A DNA stretch of 64,000 nucleotides, taken from Halobacteriales archaeon QS_9_68_17 (GTDB lineage: Archaea; Halobacteriota; Halobacteria; Halobacteriales; Natronoarchaeaceae). A model generated the notes under the pieces. The model was given only the letters and a program-made list of their open reading frames with translations. It was not told the DNA's origin and searched no databases. Position numbers and translations under genes: made by a program. Where the stretch lies: assembly GCA_003023565.1 (NCBI GenBank), contig PXSA01000039.1:93816-157815 (forward strand), given 5' to 3'. This document shows positions 50,150 through 57,264 of the stretch, piece by piece; the stretch's first letter is position 1; each line of letters opens with the position of its first letter.

Positions 50150-51067
50150 TCACGTCACCTCGAACGTCCGCGAGAGGGCGAACGCCGGAACGACGAACCC
50201 GACGGCCGCGCCGGCCCACACGAGTCCCGTCGCAGCGGCGTAGGCGGCGTCTATCGCGACGAGTCCGAGGACGCACGTGCCCACGGCCGGGCCGACCGTC
50301 GCCGGTTCCGGGTCCGCGTAGGCCGCGCGGAGCGCGGACCCGGTCCAGAGCAGAAACCCGCCGGCGAGGACGAGTCCGGCGGCCGCCGCGGCCGGGCCGG
50401 CGCGCGCGAGACCGAGGTGGACAGCGGCCCCGAGCGCGATAGCGACCGCGCTCCCGGCCGCGACGGCGACCGAGTAGCGGTCCCCGTCTCCGGTCTCGCC
50501 CGCCGCCATGAACGTCACCGCGGCGACGTACGCGGCGACCGCGGCCGCGGGGAAGAGCCATCTCGGGGAGACCCCCCCACCACCGGCGGTGGCCCCAAGC
50601 GCGACGTTCAGCCCGCGGACGGCACCCATCGCGAGGAACCCGAGCGTGCCGCCTTTCAGTGCGCCGTCGTACAGAAGTATCCCGACGGCGGTGGCCGCCG
50701 CGACCGCGCCCGCGGCGATGCCGGCAGTCGCGCCGGCCGCCGCGACGCCGATGACCAGAAACAGCGCACCGAGGCCGAAGCCAGTCCGGCGCGAAACTTC
50801 GCCGGACGGGATCGGGCGCTCGGGTCGCGCTGTCGCGTCCGCCGGCGCGTCGAACGCGTCGTTGAGCGCCGTCCCCCCCGCGTAGAGGGAGACGGACGCG
50901 AGACACAGGCCCGCGACCGACCGCGGCGACACCGTCGACCCCGCGCCCGCGGCGAGCGCCGCGCCGAGGACCACGTCCGGCGGCGCGGTGAAGAGGTTCG
51001 GCACGCGGACGAGCGCGGCGACCGCCGACAGCGACGGCCGCCGCCTCGCGGTCGCCGCCCCGCCCAT
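50150..51067 (-). CDS. UbiA family prenyltransferase (EboC-like)
   Basis: A 305-residue intramembrane prenyltransferase with about 8-9 hydrophobic segments. The first Asp-rich motif NDAFDAPAD (about 69-77, NDxxDxxxD) and RPERPIPSGEVSRR follow the family pattern, and the second motif YDGALKG is mid-protein. It attaches or transfers an isoprenoid-type chain to an acceptor in the membrane. Its 5' end is adjacent to the stop of the TIM-barrel gene (51067/51068), in one minus-strand operon TatD - TIM barrel - UbiA. The same combination defines the ebo genes of bacteria, where the UbiA member is EboC. Confidence 0.85.
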   Translation of the reverse strand: MGGAATARRRPSLSAVAALVRVPNLFTAPPDVVLGAALAAGAGSTVSPRSVAGLCLASVSLYAGGTALNDAFDAPADATARPERPIPSGEVSRRTGFGLGALFLVIGVAAAGATAGIAAGAVAAATAVGILLYDGALKGGTLGFLAMGAVRGLNVALGATAGGGGVSPRWLFPAAAVAAYVAAVTFMAAGETGDGDRYSVAVAAGSAVAIALGAAVHLGLARAGPAAAAAGLVLAGGFLLWTGSALRAAYADPEPATVGPAVGTCVLGLVAIDAAYAAATGLVWAGAAVGFVVPAFALSRTFEVT

Positions 51068-51898
51068 CTACGCCCACCCGTGCGCTTCGAGGTACCGCAT
51101 CGCCTCTCGCGCCGTCTCGGCGGCGGTCTCCTGATACGGGTACAGTTCGACGGTGACGAACCCGTCGTAGCCGCTGTCTTCCAGCGCGGTCAGAAAGCCG
51201 TCCACGTCCATCGCGCCCTCGCCGAGCTGCGTGTGCTCGTGGGTCCGGTCGCCGGGGATGTCCTCGATGTGATAGTGTTCGGAGTACTCGCCGAGCATCT
51301 CGACGAGTTCCGGGGGGTCCTCGCCGACGCAGAAGAAGTGCCCGGCGTCGAAGTTGCACTTGACCCGCGGCGAGTCCGCGCGCTCGACGAGGTCGAGGAA
51401 CTGCTCGGGGGTCTCTATCAGGAGGTCGGGTTCGGGTTCGACGAGCACGTCGACGCCGACCGACTCTGCCTTCGCGGCGACCTCGCGGAGGCCGTCGAGG
51501 AACGTCTCCGTCGCCCACGCCCGCGACTTGCCGTCCGGGACCGGTCCGCCGGGCTCGACGGAGATGTGCGGCACGTCCAGCGCCGCGGCGACGTCGAGGG
51601 CGTCCTTGGTGTACTCGATCCGGCGGCGGCGATAGGACGCGCCGGGTTCGACGAACGACGGGTGATGGATGCTCTCGATGGCCGTCAACATGAACGCGTT
51701 GCAGTTGCTGACGGCGAGGTCGTGCTCGTCGAGGGCGTCCCTGACTTCCCGTATCTCGTCCTCGTCGGCCTCCGAGGGGTAGAGGTGCGGTTCGTCGAGC
51801 AGGAGTTCGACGCCGTCGTAGCCCGCGTCGGCGAGGACCTCGATCGCCTCGCCGAGGTCGTACTCGCGGAACGCGTTGCTGGAGAAGCCGAACTTCAT
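51068..51898 (-). CDS. TIM-barrel sugar isomerase-like protein (EboE-like paralogue 2)
   Basis: A 276-residue xylose-isomerase-like barrel: FSSNAFREYDLGEAIEVL, GYDGVELLLDEPHLY, IEYTKDALDVAAALDV, GVDVLVEPEPDLL, VKCNFDAGHFFCVGEDPP (metal Asp/His), HYHIEDIPGDRTHEHTQLGE and YDGFVTVELYPYQ. The start at 51898 overlaps the TatD stop (ATGA). It matches the EboE type of protein found beside UbiA and TatD genes in bacterial ebo clusters. Confidence 0.88.
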   Translation of the reverse strand: MKFGFSSNAFREYDLGEAIEVLADAGYDGVELLLDEPHLYPSEADEDEIREVRDALDEHDLAVSNCNAFMLTAIESIHHPSFVEPGASYRRRRIEYTKDALDVAAALDVPHISVEPGGPVPDGKSRAWATETFLDGLREVAAKAESVGVDVLVEPEPDLLIETPEQFLDLVERADSPRVKCNFDAGHFFCVGEDPPELVEMLGEYSEHYHIEDIPGDRTHEHTQLGEGAMDVDGFLTALEDSGYDGFVTVELYPYQETAAETAREAMRYLEAHGWA

Positions 51899-52695
51899 GG
51901 CTCGTAGTCGAAGTTCGGCGAGCGGTCGAAGAACCGGTACGGGTTCTCGAAGACGACCTTGCGGACCTCCTCGCGGTCCCATCCCCTCTCGAGCATCTCG
52001 TCGCGCGCTTTGGGCACCGCGAGCGGGTCCGAGGGGTCCCAGTCCGCGGCGCTGTTGAAGATCATCTCGTCCGTGCCGTACTCCTCCAGCAGGTCGATGG
52101 CTTCCTCCGCCGGGATCTTGCCGGGGTACAGCGTGAAGCCGGTCCAGCAGTCGGTCCGGAGGGAGATGTCGACCGTCTCGGCCGTGTTGTGGTCGATGAC
52201 GATCCGCTCCTCCGTGACGTCTTCCTCCTGGATCATCTCGACGAGGCGCTCGGTGCCCTCGGGCTTGTTGGTGTGGGGCGTGTGGACGATGACGGGCAGT
52301 TCGCGCTCCTCGGCCATCCGCAACTGCTCGCGGAACGCCCACTCCTCGGCCTCCGTCCCCTGGTCCAGACCGATCTCGCCGACGCCGACGACGTTCTCGC
52401 GGTCGAGGTACTCCGGGAGTCGTTCGAGGACGCGCTCGGCCATCTCGCGGTAGTTCGCCTCCTTCGGCTCCAGCCCGACCGTGGCGTAGTGGTCGACGCC
52501 GGCCGTCCGCTCGGCGCGGTCGGTCTCGAAGTCGATAATGTGCTCGAAGTAGTCGAAAAACGACTCCGCGTGCCGTTTGTCCGTCCCGCTCCAGAACGCC
52601 GGTTCGATGCAGCACTCGATGCCGGCCCGCCGCGCGCGCTCGTAGTCGTCCGCGGAGCGCGACACCATGTGCATGTGTGGGTCGATTATCCGCAT
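51895..52695 (-). CDS. TatD family metal-dependent hydrolase (EboB-like)
   Basis: A 266-residue amidohydrolase-fold protein. Metal ligands: DPHMHM (H7, H9), the Glu in VVGVGEIGLDQG, VIVHTPHTNKP, and IVIDHNTAETV, ending with a late Asp in FNSAADWDPSD. TatD proteins are commonly annotated as DNases, but this subfamily is the EboB type found with UbiA and EboE genes. First gene of the minus-strand operon, divergent from the phosphodiesterase-like gene with an 82-bp promoter region between. Confidence 0.87.
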   Translation of the reverse strand: MRIIDPHMHMVSRSADDYERARRAGIECCIEPAFWSGTDKRHAESFFDYFEHIIDFETDRAERTAGVDHYATVGLEPKEANYREMAERVLERLPEYLDRENVVGVGEIGLDQGTEAEEWAFREQLRMAEERELPVIVHTPHTNKPEGTERLVEMIQEEDVTEERIVIDHNTAETVDISLRTDCWTGFTLYPGKIPAEEAIDLLEEYGTDEMIFNSAADWDPSDPLAVPKARDEMLERGWDREEVRKVVFENPYRFFDRSPNFDYEP

Positions 52696-52777
52696 GGGTC
52701 GATCTGTGGCGAAAGCCGCCTTTGTTATACCCAGTGTAATGAAATATCAACGCTGATGTCTAGATGAGAAGTCCGGT

Positions 52778-54180
52778 ATGCGGCCCCTGAAAGACAGTAT
52801 ACGGCGGATAACAAACGCGGCGACGTGTGTCCACCCGGACACCGTGACTTCACGACCGGACAGCGGACCGACCGACGGATCGGGCGAGGCGGACCGCGTC
52901 GTCGTCCTCGACGTGGTGGGCCTCGAAACGACGCACCTCGATGCGATGCCGACCCTTCGCGACCTCCTCGGCGGGACCGCGACGGACCTCCGCCCCCAGT
53001 TCCCCGCGCTGACGGTCCCGGCGCAGACGACGCTCGCGGCGGGACAGTCGCCGCGGAGCCACGGCGACGTGGCCAGCGGCGAGTACGACCGCGAGAGCGA
53101 CGAGGCCGCCTTCTGGGAACGCGACCGTAGCGACCGGACGCGCATCTGGGAGGCGGCGGCGGAGACGGACCTGACTGCGGGCGCGCTCTTCTTCCAGCAC
53201 CTGATCGGATCGTCGGCGGACGTGGCAGTGACGCCGTCGCCGATAGAGGACGAGGGGAACGAACTGATCGAGATGGACTGCTGGTCGAACCCGGACGGGT
53301 TCTACGACGACCTCCGCGAGGAGTGCGGCCACTTCCCGCTACATCGCTACTGGGGTCCCGGCGCGGACGAGGAGAGCACCGACTGGATCCTCGACGCCGC
53401 CCGCGAGAGCGTCGAGCGGTACGACCCCGACCTCCTCTGGGTGTACCTCCCGCATCTGGACTACGCCGGCCTGCGCGACGGTCCCGGGTCCGACGCCTTC
53501 GAATCGGCCCTCGAAACCGTCGACGACCTGCTGAGGGAGTTCCTCGATGCGCTCCGGGCGGACGACCGCTGGGACGAGACGGCGGTCGCGGTGTGCAGCG
53601 AGTACGCCTTCCACGGAGTCGATACGCCCGTCTTCCCGAACCGCGCGCTCCGCGACGCCGGCCTGCTCGCGACCGACGACGGCGGCGATGTCGACCTCGA
53701 TCTGTCGGCGGCGTTCGCGATGGTCGACCACCAGGTCGCACACGTCTACGCCGACGACGACGCGCTGACGGACGCCCGCGACGCGCTCGAACCGCTGGAC
53801 GGCGTCGACGAGATGCTCGACGCGGCCGGCAAGCGGACGCAGGGGGTCGACCACCCGAACGCGGGCGACCTCGTCCTCGTCGCCGACCGCGACGCCTGGT
53901 TCCAGTACTACTGGTGGACGGACGACACGAACGCCCCGCCGTACGCGACGGACATGGACATCCACGCCAAGCCCGGCTTCGACCCCTGTGAACTGTTCGT
54001 CGGCGAGTCGGGACTAGTCTCGCTCGACCCCTCGAAGGTCGGCGGGTCGCACGGCCGGCGGTCGACGCGCGCTCCGTCGCCCCGACCGTCGCGGACCTCC
54101 TCGGGATCGAAGGCGACGTGGACCTGCGGTTCGAGCGGGAGTCGGTGTTACCGGTGGCCCCGCGTCACTCCCAGTCGTAG
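52778..54180 (+). pseudogene. Alkaline-phosphatase-superfamily phosphodiesterase (EboF-like), 3' frameshift
   Basis: About 465 residues of nucleotide-pyrophosphatase/phosphodiesterase type: VVVLDVVGLETTHLDAMPTL, FPALTVPAQTTLAAGQSPRS containing the nucleophile Thr, LLWVYLPHLDYAGLRDGPGS, VAVCSEYAFHG and MDIHAKPGFDPCELFVG. After GGSHGR the frame is lost near 54050-54060, and the last segment AVDARSVAPTVADLLGIEGD lies in another frame to the stop at 54180. One base change in a CCGGCGG run repairs it, and only the last 45 residues are affected, so a sequencing error is plausible. The first 25 residues may be non-coding. Divergent partner of the ebo-like operon. Confidence 0.8.
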
Positions 54181-55807: not shown

Positions 55808-57264
55808 TCAGTACTTCGTCTCGGCTCCCGAGACGCCCAGTCGGTCGTTCAGTTGGGCGTCCAGCGCGTCGCGCTCGTCGCGCCAGCGGAAGAACTCGTC
55901 GCGGTCGTCGGGGTAGTTCGCGTACTGGTGCTCGAGCTGGTCGGCGTAACGCCGCGTCGCGATGAAGTCCGCGAGCGTCTCCAGCACCTCCCGCTTCGAG
56001 GTGTCGAGTTCGTCGAACCTGTCGTCCCTGAACAGGCTCCAGGCGTTTTTCACGACGCCGCTCGCGAGGTTCGCGACGTTTCGAACGCCGAACGAGTCCT
56101 CCTCGGAGGAGACGACGTCGGTGATCTCAGCCTCGGGCAACAGGGCGACGGCGGCCCTGACGTTCGCCATCCCGGCCTCCGACGCGGCGATGTTGTACGG
56201 GTCCTTGGAAGCGATCCGCGTCCCGAGGCCGTGCTCCGCGTAGACGAAGTAGTTGTGGTCCCAGAGGTCCGCCTCGGAGATGAAGCCGTCCTCGTCCCCG
56301 TGGACCGCCTTCGCGCCGTACTTCCCGGCCGAGTACCCGGTCACGGCCGCCCCTCTGATCCCCTTCCCGGAGACCGGATGCGTGGTCCCCGCGTTGCACC
56401 CGACCGTGACGTAGCCCGGCGCGACCATCGAGTCGAGCGGTCGGCGCAGCCCGAGCGCCGCGCCGAGTTTGTCCGCCTCGCCGTTGATCTCGGCGAGTTC
56501 CGCGCCGTCGAACTCGGGGCGTCCGCTCACGTCCTCCCGGAGCCTGTCGACGAGCGGGACCGGTTCCTTGTTCATCTGGAACCCGAGTCCGACGTTGATC
56601 TCCGTCGAGGTCCGCGGGAAGTACCAGACGTAGCCCATCTCCTCCAGCGGTTTCCCGACCAGCGCGTTGTCGTAGGGAACGTCGTCGGGGGTCAGTAACA
56701 CCTCCCGGTACGCGGAGCCGAACTGCTGGTAGTGCGGTTCCTCGAAACTGGTCTCGGGGTCGGCGGCGAGGTCGTCGAAGTCTCGCCGTCCCTGACGGCC
56801 CGAACGCCCTCGACCTGATCGTCTTGAAGCACGTCGTTGACCACGGTGGCGAACCGCTGTTCGACGCCGAGGTCCGCGGTCTGTCGGAGGAGGGCCTGTC
56901 CGAACTCGTATCTGTCGATGACGTTGCTGCCGCTGTCGTACGGCAGGACCTTCCGGACCCCGATCTCCTCGTCCCACCACTCGATCTGGTCGATGTTCTC
57001 GTCCACGAGGATATCGTCGTTCCCCGCGATAGCGACCATGTCGATCGGCCCGGGGTAGCGCTTCGAGTCGGTCGGGCTCTTCATCGCGTCGCCACAGGCG
57101 ATGTGCCCGGCGTTCTCCGCCGATTTCCGCTCTATCTGGAGAACCTCAGCGCCCGCGTCGGCCGCGGTCGCGGCCGCGAAACACCCCGCGACGCCGCCGC
57201 CGACGACGATGATCTCGTAGTCCGTCGAAGGCTTCGTACCCGTTCTCCCCGTGGCGCTATCCAT
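55808..57264 (-). pseudogene. Geranylgeranyl reductase-like flavoprotein with internal deletion/frameshift
   Basis: From ATG 57264: DYEIIVVGGGVAGCFAAATA (FAD-binding), NAGHIACGDAMKSP and VIDRYEFGQALLRQ, all typical of the digeranylgeranylglycerophospholipid / menaquinone-type reductase family. After VEGVRAVRDGE (near 56780) the frame changes and roughly 15-20 residues of the DAxG region are missing. The other frame carries on with YQQFGSAYREVLL, MGYVWYFPRTSTEINVGLG, GYVTVGCNAGTTHPVSGKGI and a normal C-terminus to 55808. The deletion removes part of the FAD/NAD core, so true inactivation is likely. It would reduce isoprenoid double bonds. Confidence 0.8.

Follow-up and report, generated by a model that had tools for sequence, protein, structure and literature searches.

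The ebo genes (eboA-F; PMC5133447, PMC6282210) are the closest described counterparts of the gene block reported here. An isoprenoid-cyclitol compound was proposed for them by Yurchenko et al. (2016), and in the accessible part of that paper EboB and EboE are given general predictions only and EboD a posited substrate, the chemistry having been open since 2016 (PMC5133447). We analyzed a 64,000-nucleotide stretch of Halobacteriales archaeon QS_9_68_17 (assembly GCA_003023565.1, contig PXSA01000039.1, positions 93,816 to 157,815; the whole stretch is called the window below), where genes for a TatD-family hydrolase, a TIM-barrel protein (TIM1), a UbiA-superfamily prenyltransferase and a divergent phosphodiesterase lie together. 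In other haloarchaea this block is often joined by an Ino1-type (inositol-phosphate synthase) cyclase. We regard it as a haloarchaeal form of the ebo set that most likely makes, or loads or handles, a prenylated C6 cyclitol, a view we hold with about even confidence.

A search of titles and abstract openings, with most subscription papers outside our reach, gave no account of ebo in Archaea or of Ino1 in ebo sets. The accessible text of PMC5133447 does not contain "Halo", and "inositol" is absent from the accessible text of both PMC5133447 and PMC6282210.

An Ino1-Type Cyclase Often Accompanies the Haloarchaeal Gene Block

Twenty-one haloarchaeal loci, none longer than 20 kb and all selected for holding a TatD of the window's type, were compared; L040, L041 and L131, which are cut by contig ends, were excluded from this count. 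UbiA and TIM1 were found in all 21, a second TIM barrel (TIM2) in 20, the phosphodiesterase in 18 and an Ino1-type gene in 14. The block, which the initial annotation of the window had read as ebo-like, is more than a chance grouping, and this gene-neighborhood survey across Halobacteria showed that other haloarchaea hold the genes together. Ino1, with the domain pair PF07994 and PF01658, always adjoined the phosphodiesterase. In 13 loci the two formed a pair divergent from TatD, with Ino1 intervening, and TatD and phosphodiesterase then lay about 1.4–1.9 kb apart in those measured; in L113 Ino1 was downstream on the same strand. Three further genomes (G036, G077, and G092) have Ino1 elsewhere, in G077 and G092 again next to a phosphodiesterase.

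At the level of whole genomes, a TatD match was found in 21 of 117 genomes of the order, 15 of them (the window's own included) at an identity of at least 77% and spread over 6 of 48 genera. The six genomes with partial matches (32–34% identity) were excluded from the co-occurrence counts, as were a 55-residue phosphodiesterase fragment (G055) and a phosphodiesterase of 37% identity (G036). At the 77% threshold TatD and Ino1 occurred together in 14 genomes, TatD alone in one, Ino1 alone in one and neither in 101 (Fisher p = 5e-16 by genome and 8e-8 by genus, relatedness beyond genus being ignored), each being present in the same six genera. Window-type TatD was carried by 14 of the 17 genomes with a PF01658 gene.

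The best match of the haloarchaeal Ino1 protein P0006 was the A. fulgidus synthase 1u1i (283 bits). It keeps K278, K367, and N255 (numbering from the alignment), the residues replaced in 3qvw, 3qvx, and 3qw2. Against the mycothiol Ino1 model haloarchaeal Ino1 scored 37 bits, the cut-off being 638. Ino1 of the haloarchaeal type was also seen on two Halomarina plasmids (L118:7992-9236 and L250:8001-9242), with no ebo genes in the fetched stretch; in L118 it lies beside glycosyltransferases.

Ring-Forming Enzymes Differ Between Lineages

EboA and EboD, not visible in the block at its initial annotation, were sought in 16 haloarchaeal genomes, 15 of them carrying window-type TatD. The EboA model (NF035938) was above cut-off in none of these, with three sub-threshold scores of 12–14 bits, and was positive in 4/4 ebo plasmids. 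PMC5133447 also names a variant of the set in which EboG takes the place of EboA. The EboD domain (PF01761) was detected in 0/16 haloarchaeal genomes and 0/2 Streptomyces plasmids and in 2/2 classic ebo plasmids; an EboD elsewhere in the genome, which the initial annotation had suggested looking for, did not turn up. The description of the block as a reduced archaeal ebo fits the window locus, where no cyclase lies, but not the haloarchaeal loci at large, with their Ino1-type cyclase and additional TIM barrel; a cyclase that is simply missing was ruled out by its presence in 14 of the 21.

From at least 584 relatives of the TatD alignment 80 loci were kept, and among these an EboD-like gene was found in 50, Ino1 in 12, neither in 18 and both in none. 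The 50 include L133, with a scyllo-inosose-type cyclase, and the weak L204 (67 bits); the 18 include short contigs, among them the actinobacterial L195 and L201, and L145 and L146 come from one strain. Ino1 was present in 9 of the 11 Actinomycetota loci, the other two being cut by contig ends, and EboD in none of them; three of the four haloarchaeal loci in this sample also had Ino1. Gemmatirosa, from another phylum, holds Ino1 among its ebo genes. On the Streptomyces plasmids NBC_00663 and NBC_00376 the annotated order is Ino1, SCO3242 prenyltransferase, TIM, EboA, TatD, EboE and a protein of the phosphodiesterase/alkaline phosphatase family.

Another ring-forming enzyme was encountered in Paenibacillus phytorum (L133), whose set reads TIM-TatD-TIM-EboC-phosphodiesterase, with an IolE-like protein in addition (227 bits, cut-off 290). 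The top match of its cyclase in the PDB was 2-deoxy-scyllo-inosose synthase, at 301 bits, the next match reaching 146. The P. phytorum TatD grouped with haloarchaeal TatD (support 99/83) and a TIM of this set with the haloarchaeal TIM2 proteins (100/98), whilst its phosphodiesterase had no settled place in the tree.

Two observations were made on bacterial plasmids in passing. On a Streptomyces plasmid, the Ino1-type ebo operon is immediately preceded by a ScyD/ScyE-family gene (L110:7563-8762), an arrangement reminiscent of the scytonemin setting in cyanobacteria. A separate set, comprising an Ino1-type gene, a Gfo/Idh oxidoreductase, a YcaO-like protein and a TIM barrel, recurs on Hymenobacter and Roseomonas plasmids (L119:7965-14591; L248:5986-13161), and in Methylobacterium (L247, which has no annotation) Ino1 and a TIM barrel stand at similar spacing.

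Placement of the Individual Proteins

Trees were built from 15 haloarchaeal, 9 actinobacterial and 12 classic loci, picked for spread. Of 41 TatD proteins, 37 set members (15 haloarchaeal) separated with support of 100/100 from four generic TatD proteins, the outgroups being haloarchaeal only. The motif EPAFW was present in 37/37 set members, partly by construction, as it was used in the pattern search for some loci, and the DPH motif in 14 of 15 haloarchaeal rows. The phosphodiesterase tree, with 46 proteins after outgroup rows L231 and L237 were dropped, separated 36 set members, 14 of them haloarchaeal, together with the EboF-like L224, from nine other haloarchaeal PF01663 proteins, again at 100/100. 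A sequence pattern intended for the phosphodiesterase matched 5 of 14 haloarchaeal rows; it was an ill-suited choice and is given no weight. Both trees bear out the kinship with EboB and EboF that had been claimed for the hydrolase and the nucleotide-pyrophosphatase, away from ordinary haloarchaeal paralogues. L224 (also L106) is a phosphodiesterase of 37% identity, encoded away from the block at G036:C2:36312-37466 and placed with EboF in the tree; the block of G036 has no phosphodiesterase nearby.

The initial annotation had equated the TIM barrel with EboE. Against the curated EboE model (NF035939) TIM1 scored 24.6 bits and TIM2 17 bits, the cut-off being 250, and the identity of TIM1 with EboE was ruled out by a score so far below it; the link that stands is a profile-profile comparison (96.7%), which indicates a distant relation. 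The TIM1 model had a predicted local distance difference test score (pLDDT) of 92.6, and its PDB matches were UlaE, D-tagatose 3-epimerases and IolI, at 17–26% identity. E154, D184, H210, and E251 are invariant across 11 aligned TIM sequences (A5). TIM1 and TIM2 are small barrels resembling keto-sugar epimerases and distantly related to EboE.

The aspartate motif of UbiA was found as written in 13 of 15 haloarchaeal rows. In the PDB the UbiA model (pLDDT 87.8) came closest to digeranylgeranylglyceryl phosphate synthase 7bpu, with a template modeling score of 0.62. The reaction of 7bpu, which we take to be prenylation of a glycerol-phosphate lipid precursor, suits a polyol acceptor, and the modeled likeness fits one; fold resemblance does not fix the acceptor.

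Gene Organization and Carriers of the Block

The window genome is a draft, 89% complete in 42 contigs. The gene coordinates (Table 1) agree with the initial annotation in that TatD, TIM barrel and UbiA are packed on the minus strand, with an ATGA overlap and a zero-gap junction, and that a PF01663 phosphodiesterase diverges from them across 82 bp. PF01040, PF01261, PF01026, and PF01663 all passed the Pfam gathering score in the block proteins.

Table 1. Features of the gene block and its surroundings in the window.
Feature	Coordinates	Strand	Remarks
TIM2, second TIM-barrel protein, 285 aa	46599..47456	-	PF01261, 159 bits; paralogue of TIM1 (51068 gene)
UbiA-superfamily prenyltransferase, EboC-like, 305 aa	50150..51067	-	PF01040
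TIM1, TIM-barrel isomerase/epimerase-like, 276 aa	51068..51898	-	PF01261, 164 bits; zero gap to UbiA
TatD-family hydrolase, EboB branch, 266 aa	51895..52695	-	PF01026; 4-nt ATGA overlap with TIM1
Divergent intergenic region, 82 bp	52696..52777	.	Ino1 gene sits here in 13/21 haloarchaeal loci
Phosphodiesterase/nucleotide-pyrophosphatase, EboF branch, intact domain part	52778..54055	+	PF01663
Phosphodiesterase C-terminal end, other frame	54061..54180	+	tblastn with sister protein

Two features had escaped the initial annotation: TIM2, which belongs to the same set, and a frame break in the phosphodiesterase gene. A tblastn search with the protein of the sister genome, where it occupies a single frame, matched 52784-54058 in frame 2 and then 54061-54177 in frame 1, and sister residues 436–459 had no match between the two segments. 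The PF01663 match covers residues 41–402 of 426 and lies upstream of the break. TatD, TIM1, UbiA, and TIM2 all have open frames and are 95, 88, 78, and 90% identical to their sister proteins. Further along, a reductase-like gene (55808-57264; a geranylgeranyl reductase as judged by eye) also appears to lie in two frames, split near 56700, which makes assembly error a likely cause of the frame break and suggests indel errors in the window assembly.

Named carriers of the block, which may overlap with the 117 genomes, include plasmids of Halobaculum salinum, Natronococcus sp. CG52, Haladaptatus pallidirubidus and Halocatena salina. It was further found in Halobellus inordinatus, Halorussus aquaticus, Haloarcula pellucida and one Halobacteriales metagenome genome, whose short contig (L131) holds TatD, Ino1, and phosphodiesterase only. 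A scan of the neighboring genes, in which antisense shadow frames were disregarded, gave gene clusters in eight loci that are confined to one genus (g8) and a glucose/sorbosone dehydrogenase (GSDH)-type gene that recurs in 6 of 21 loci. The latter lies near the block at L035:13596-15563 and also in L037, L039, L042, L047, and L130; in L035, the one copy checked, the protein combines the dehydrogenase domain with plastocyanin-like domains, and a twin-arginine translocation (Tat)-type signal was recognized by eye.

Proposed Function and Alternative Explanations

TatD, UbiA, a TIM barrel and the phosphodiesterase form a shared core, and the ring-forming enzyme varies; on this basis we suggest a route whose end product is a prenylated C6 cyclitol, and in which cyclitol formation seems to be the constant step and the cyclase interchangeable. 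The reactions, their order and the product, as we infer them, would be these. The Ino1-type synthase would make inositol 1-phosphate from glucose 6-phosphate, the two TIM-barrel enzymes would isomerize or epimerize an oxidized cyclitol, and the UbiA protein would add a prenyl chain, geranylgeranyl being the natural prenyl donor in haloarchaea. The EboF-type phosphodiesterase would take off a phosphate, and the EboB-type TatD would carry out a metal-dependent hydrolysis.

Several observations weigh against this proposal. The sister genome G078 (99% complete) and Haloarcula pellucida, for which no completeness figure is given, carry the block and no PF01658 gene, the Haladaptatus plasmid L114 has no Ino1 near its block, and the larger piece of the window genome's Ino1 clusters (90/87) with that of G101, which lacks a TatD of this type. 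The top NCBIfam model for the Paenibacillus cyclase was AroB (225 bits, cut-off 305), not inosose synthase. As for UbiA, the initial annotation's EboC was indeed its top NCBIfam model, but the score of 177 bits falls short of the cut-off of 250, as do the 151 bits to the SCO3242 family of that family's 260, and trees left its place unsettled: approximately unbiased tests rejected neither grouping (p = 0.446 and 0.2; rows L144, L005, and L006 dropped). Because the outgroup branches are long, the UbiA trees were not accepted as proof that the protein belongs to EboC. In the accessible parts of the respective papers, the sole EboC-type activity found in vitro is the transfer of a farnesyl group to 8-hydroxyquinoline-2-carboxylic acid and aromatics like it (PMC9235831), and the Nostoc ebo mutants point toward metabolite traffic (Klicki et al., 2018; PMC6282210).

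Were the block concerned with such traffic and not with synthesis, a lipid carrier or complex would move small molecules over the membrane, in line with the role in scytonemin export that has been proposed for ebo in cyanobacteria, and a cyclitol lipid would be the carrier. The NCBI label for EboE is "metabolite traffic protein", and the GSDH-type proteins near six of the 21 blocks have a likely export signal. However, outside genus g8 only the six set genes and the GSDH-type gene were noticed recurring, although the clusters confined to g8 could include a transporter, and to our knowledge haloarchaea generally have no outer membrane. We consider transport unlikely as the main function.

It is similarly improbable, in our judgment, that separate pathways merely travel together, with Ino1 as the source of the inositol in a solute or a glycolipid, and with some other, perhaps aromatic, compound being prenylated by the UbiA set. 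Such independence is consistent with Ino1 in G101 and on the Halomarina plasmids, with the two genomes that have the block and no PF01658 gene, and with the aromatic acceptor of EboC in vitro. Against it stand Ino1 among the ebo genes of Actinobacteria and Gemmatirosa and the different cyclase-type enzyme held in the set by other lineages.

In the window's own genus the block may instead have decayed, with Ino1 gone from the locus, a phosphodiesterase whose C-terminus has slipped out of frame, and the other genes persisting as relics. Neither the 82-bp gap of the window nor the sister locus L033 has a linked Ino1, and the sister genome has no PF01658 gene at all. The one PF01658 gene of the window genome lies on a separate contig (C37), among open reading frames that look unrelated by eye, and is itself in two frames. 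Being unlinked, frame-broken and grouped with the Ino1 of G101, it may be outside the set; the view that it surely belongs there was rejected, because the copy with which its larger piece clusters comes from a TatD-less genome. On the other side, the four open frames are conserved with the sister, the sister phosphodiesterase is in a single frame, and the split reductase-like gene makes assembly error likely, and we think decay a doubtful explanation. With Ino1 absent from the locus in this genus, any cyclitol that the set requires would need to be supplied by the unlinked Ino1 copy, another enzyme or an outside source. Finally, unrelated enzymes of sugar or inositol catabolism with a superficial likeness to ebo, which the resemblance of TIM1 and TIM2 to keto-sugar epimerases might recall, are largely refuted and very improbable given the 100/100 separations in the TatD and phosphodiesterase trees and the UbiA-type membrane prenyltransferase in the set.

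The natural exchange of the cyclase for a type of enzyme whose reaction is known hints at which step is constant and offers an assayable entry point to ebo, which would also extend to Archaea. The frequency of TatD among PF01658-bearing genomes would point to a likely reason for inositol synthesis in these archaea. A broader and more tentative possibility, which we rate as somewhat improbable, is that ebo is a general route to a prenylated carbocyclic sugar, with EboD, Ino1 and 2-deoxy-scyllo-inosose-synthase-like cyclases filling the same step and prenylated inositol, the haloarchaeal product, as the main reason for keeping inositol-phosphate synthase. Glucose 6-phosphate is the substrate of Ino1 as well as of 2-deoxy-scyllo-inosose synthase; EboD may therefore yield a C6 cyclitol and not the C7 cyclitol suggested in 2016.

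Comparison With Known Systems

The haloarchaeal Ino1 shares with the archaeal myo-inositol-1-phosphate synthase of A. fulgidus (1u1i) the PF07994/PF01658 pair and the residues checked; it differs in sitting among ebo-type genes, and its activity is a predicted one. The Paenibacillus phytorum set likewise consists of two TIM barrels, TatD, UbiA, and phosphodiesterase with no EboA or EboE found, four proteins being 42–46% identical and UbiA 39% over 150 residues. In contrast to the haloarchaeal block it is bacterial, has a 2-deoxy-scyllo-inosose-synthase-like cyclase and an IolE-like protein and no Ino1, and its UbiA passes the EboC cut-off. The actinobacterial ebo operon has the same Ino1-type cyclase, UbiA, extra TIM barrel, TatD, and phosphodiesterase and also no EboD, but keeps EboA and EboE and a single gene direction, with a TatD that is 43–45% identical. 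With the eboA-F operon (PMC5133447, PMC6282210) the block shares clustered genes for an EboB-branch TatD, an EboF-branch phosphodiesterase, an EboC-like UbiA and a TIM barrel. The differences are that no EboA or EboD domain was found, that TIM1 (276 aa) falls outside EboE when judged by the curated model and is joined by a second TIM barrel, that the hosts are archaea, and that Ino1 takes the place of EboD in 14 of the 21 haloarchaeal loci.

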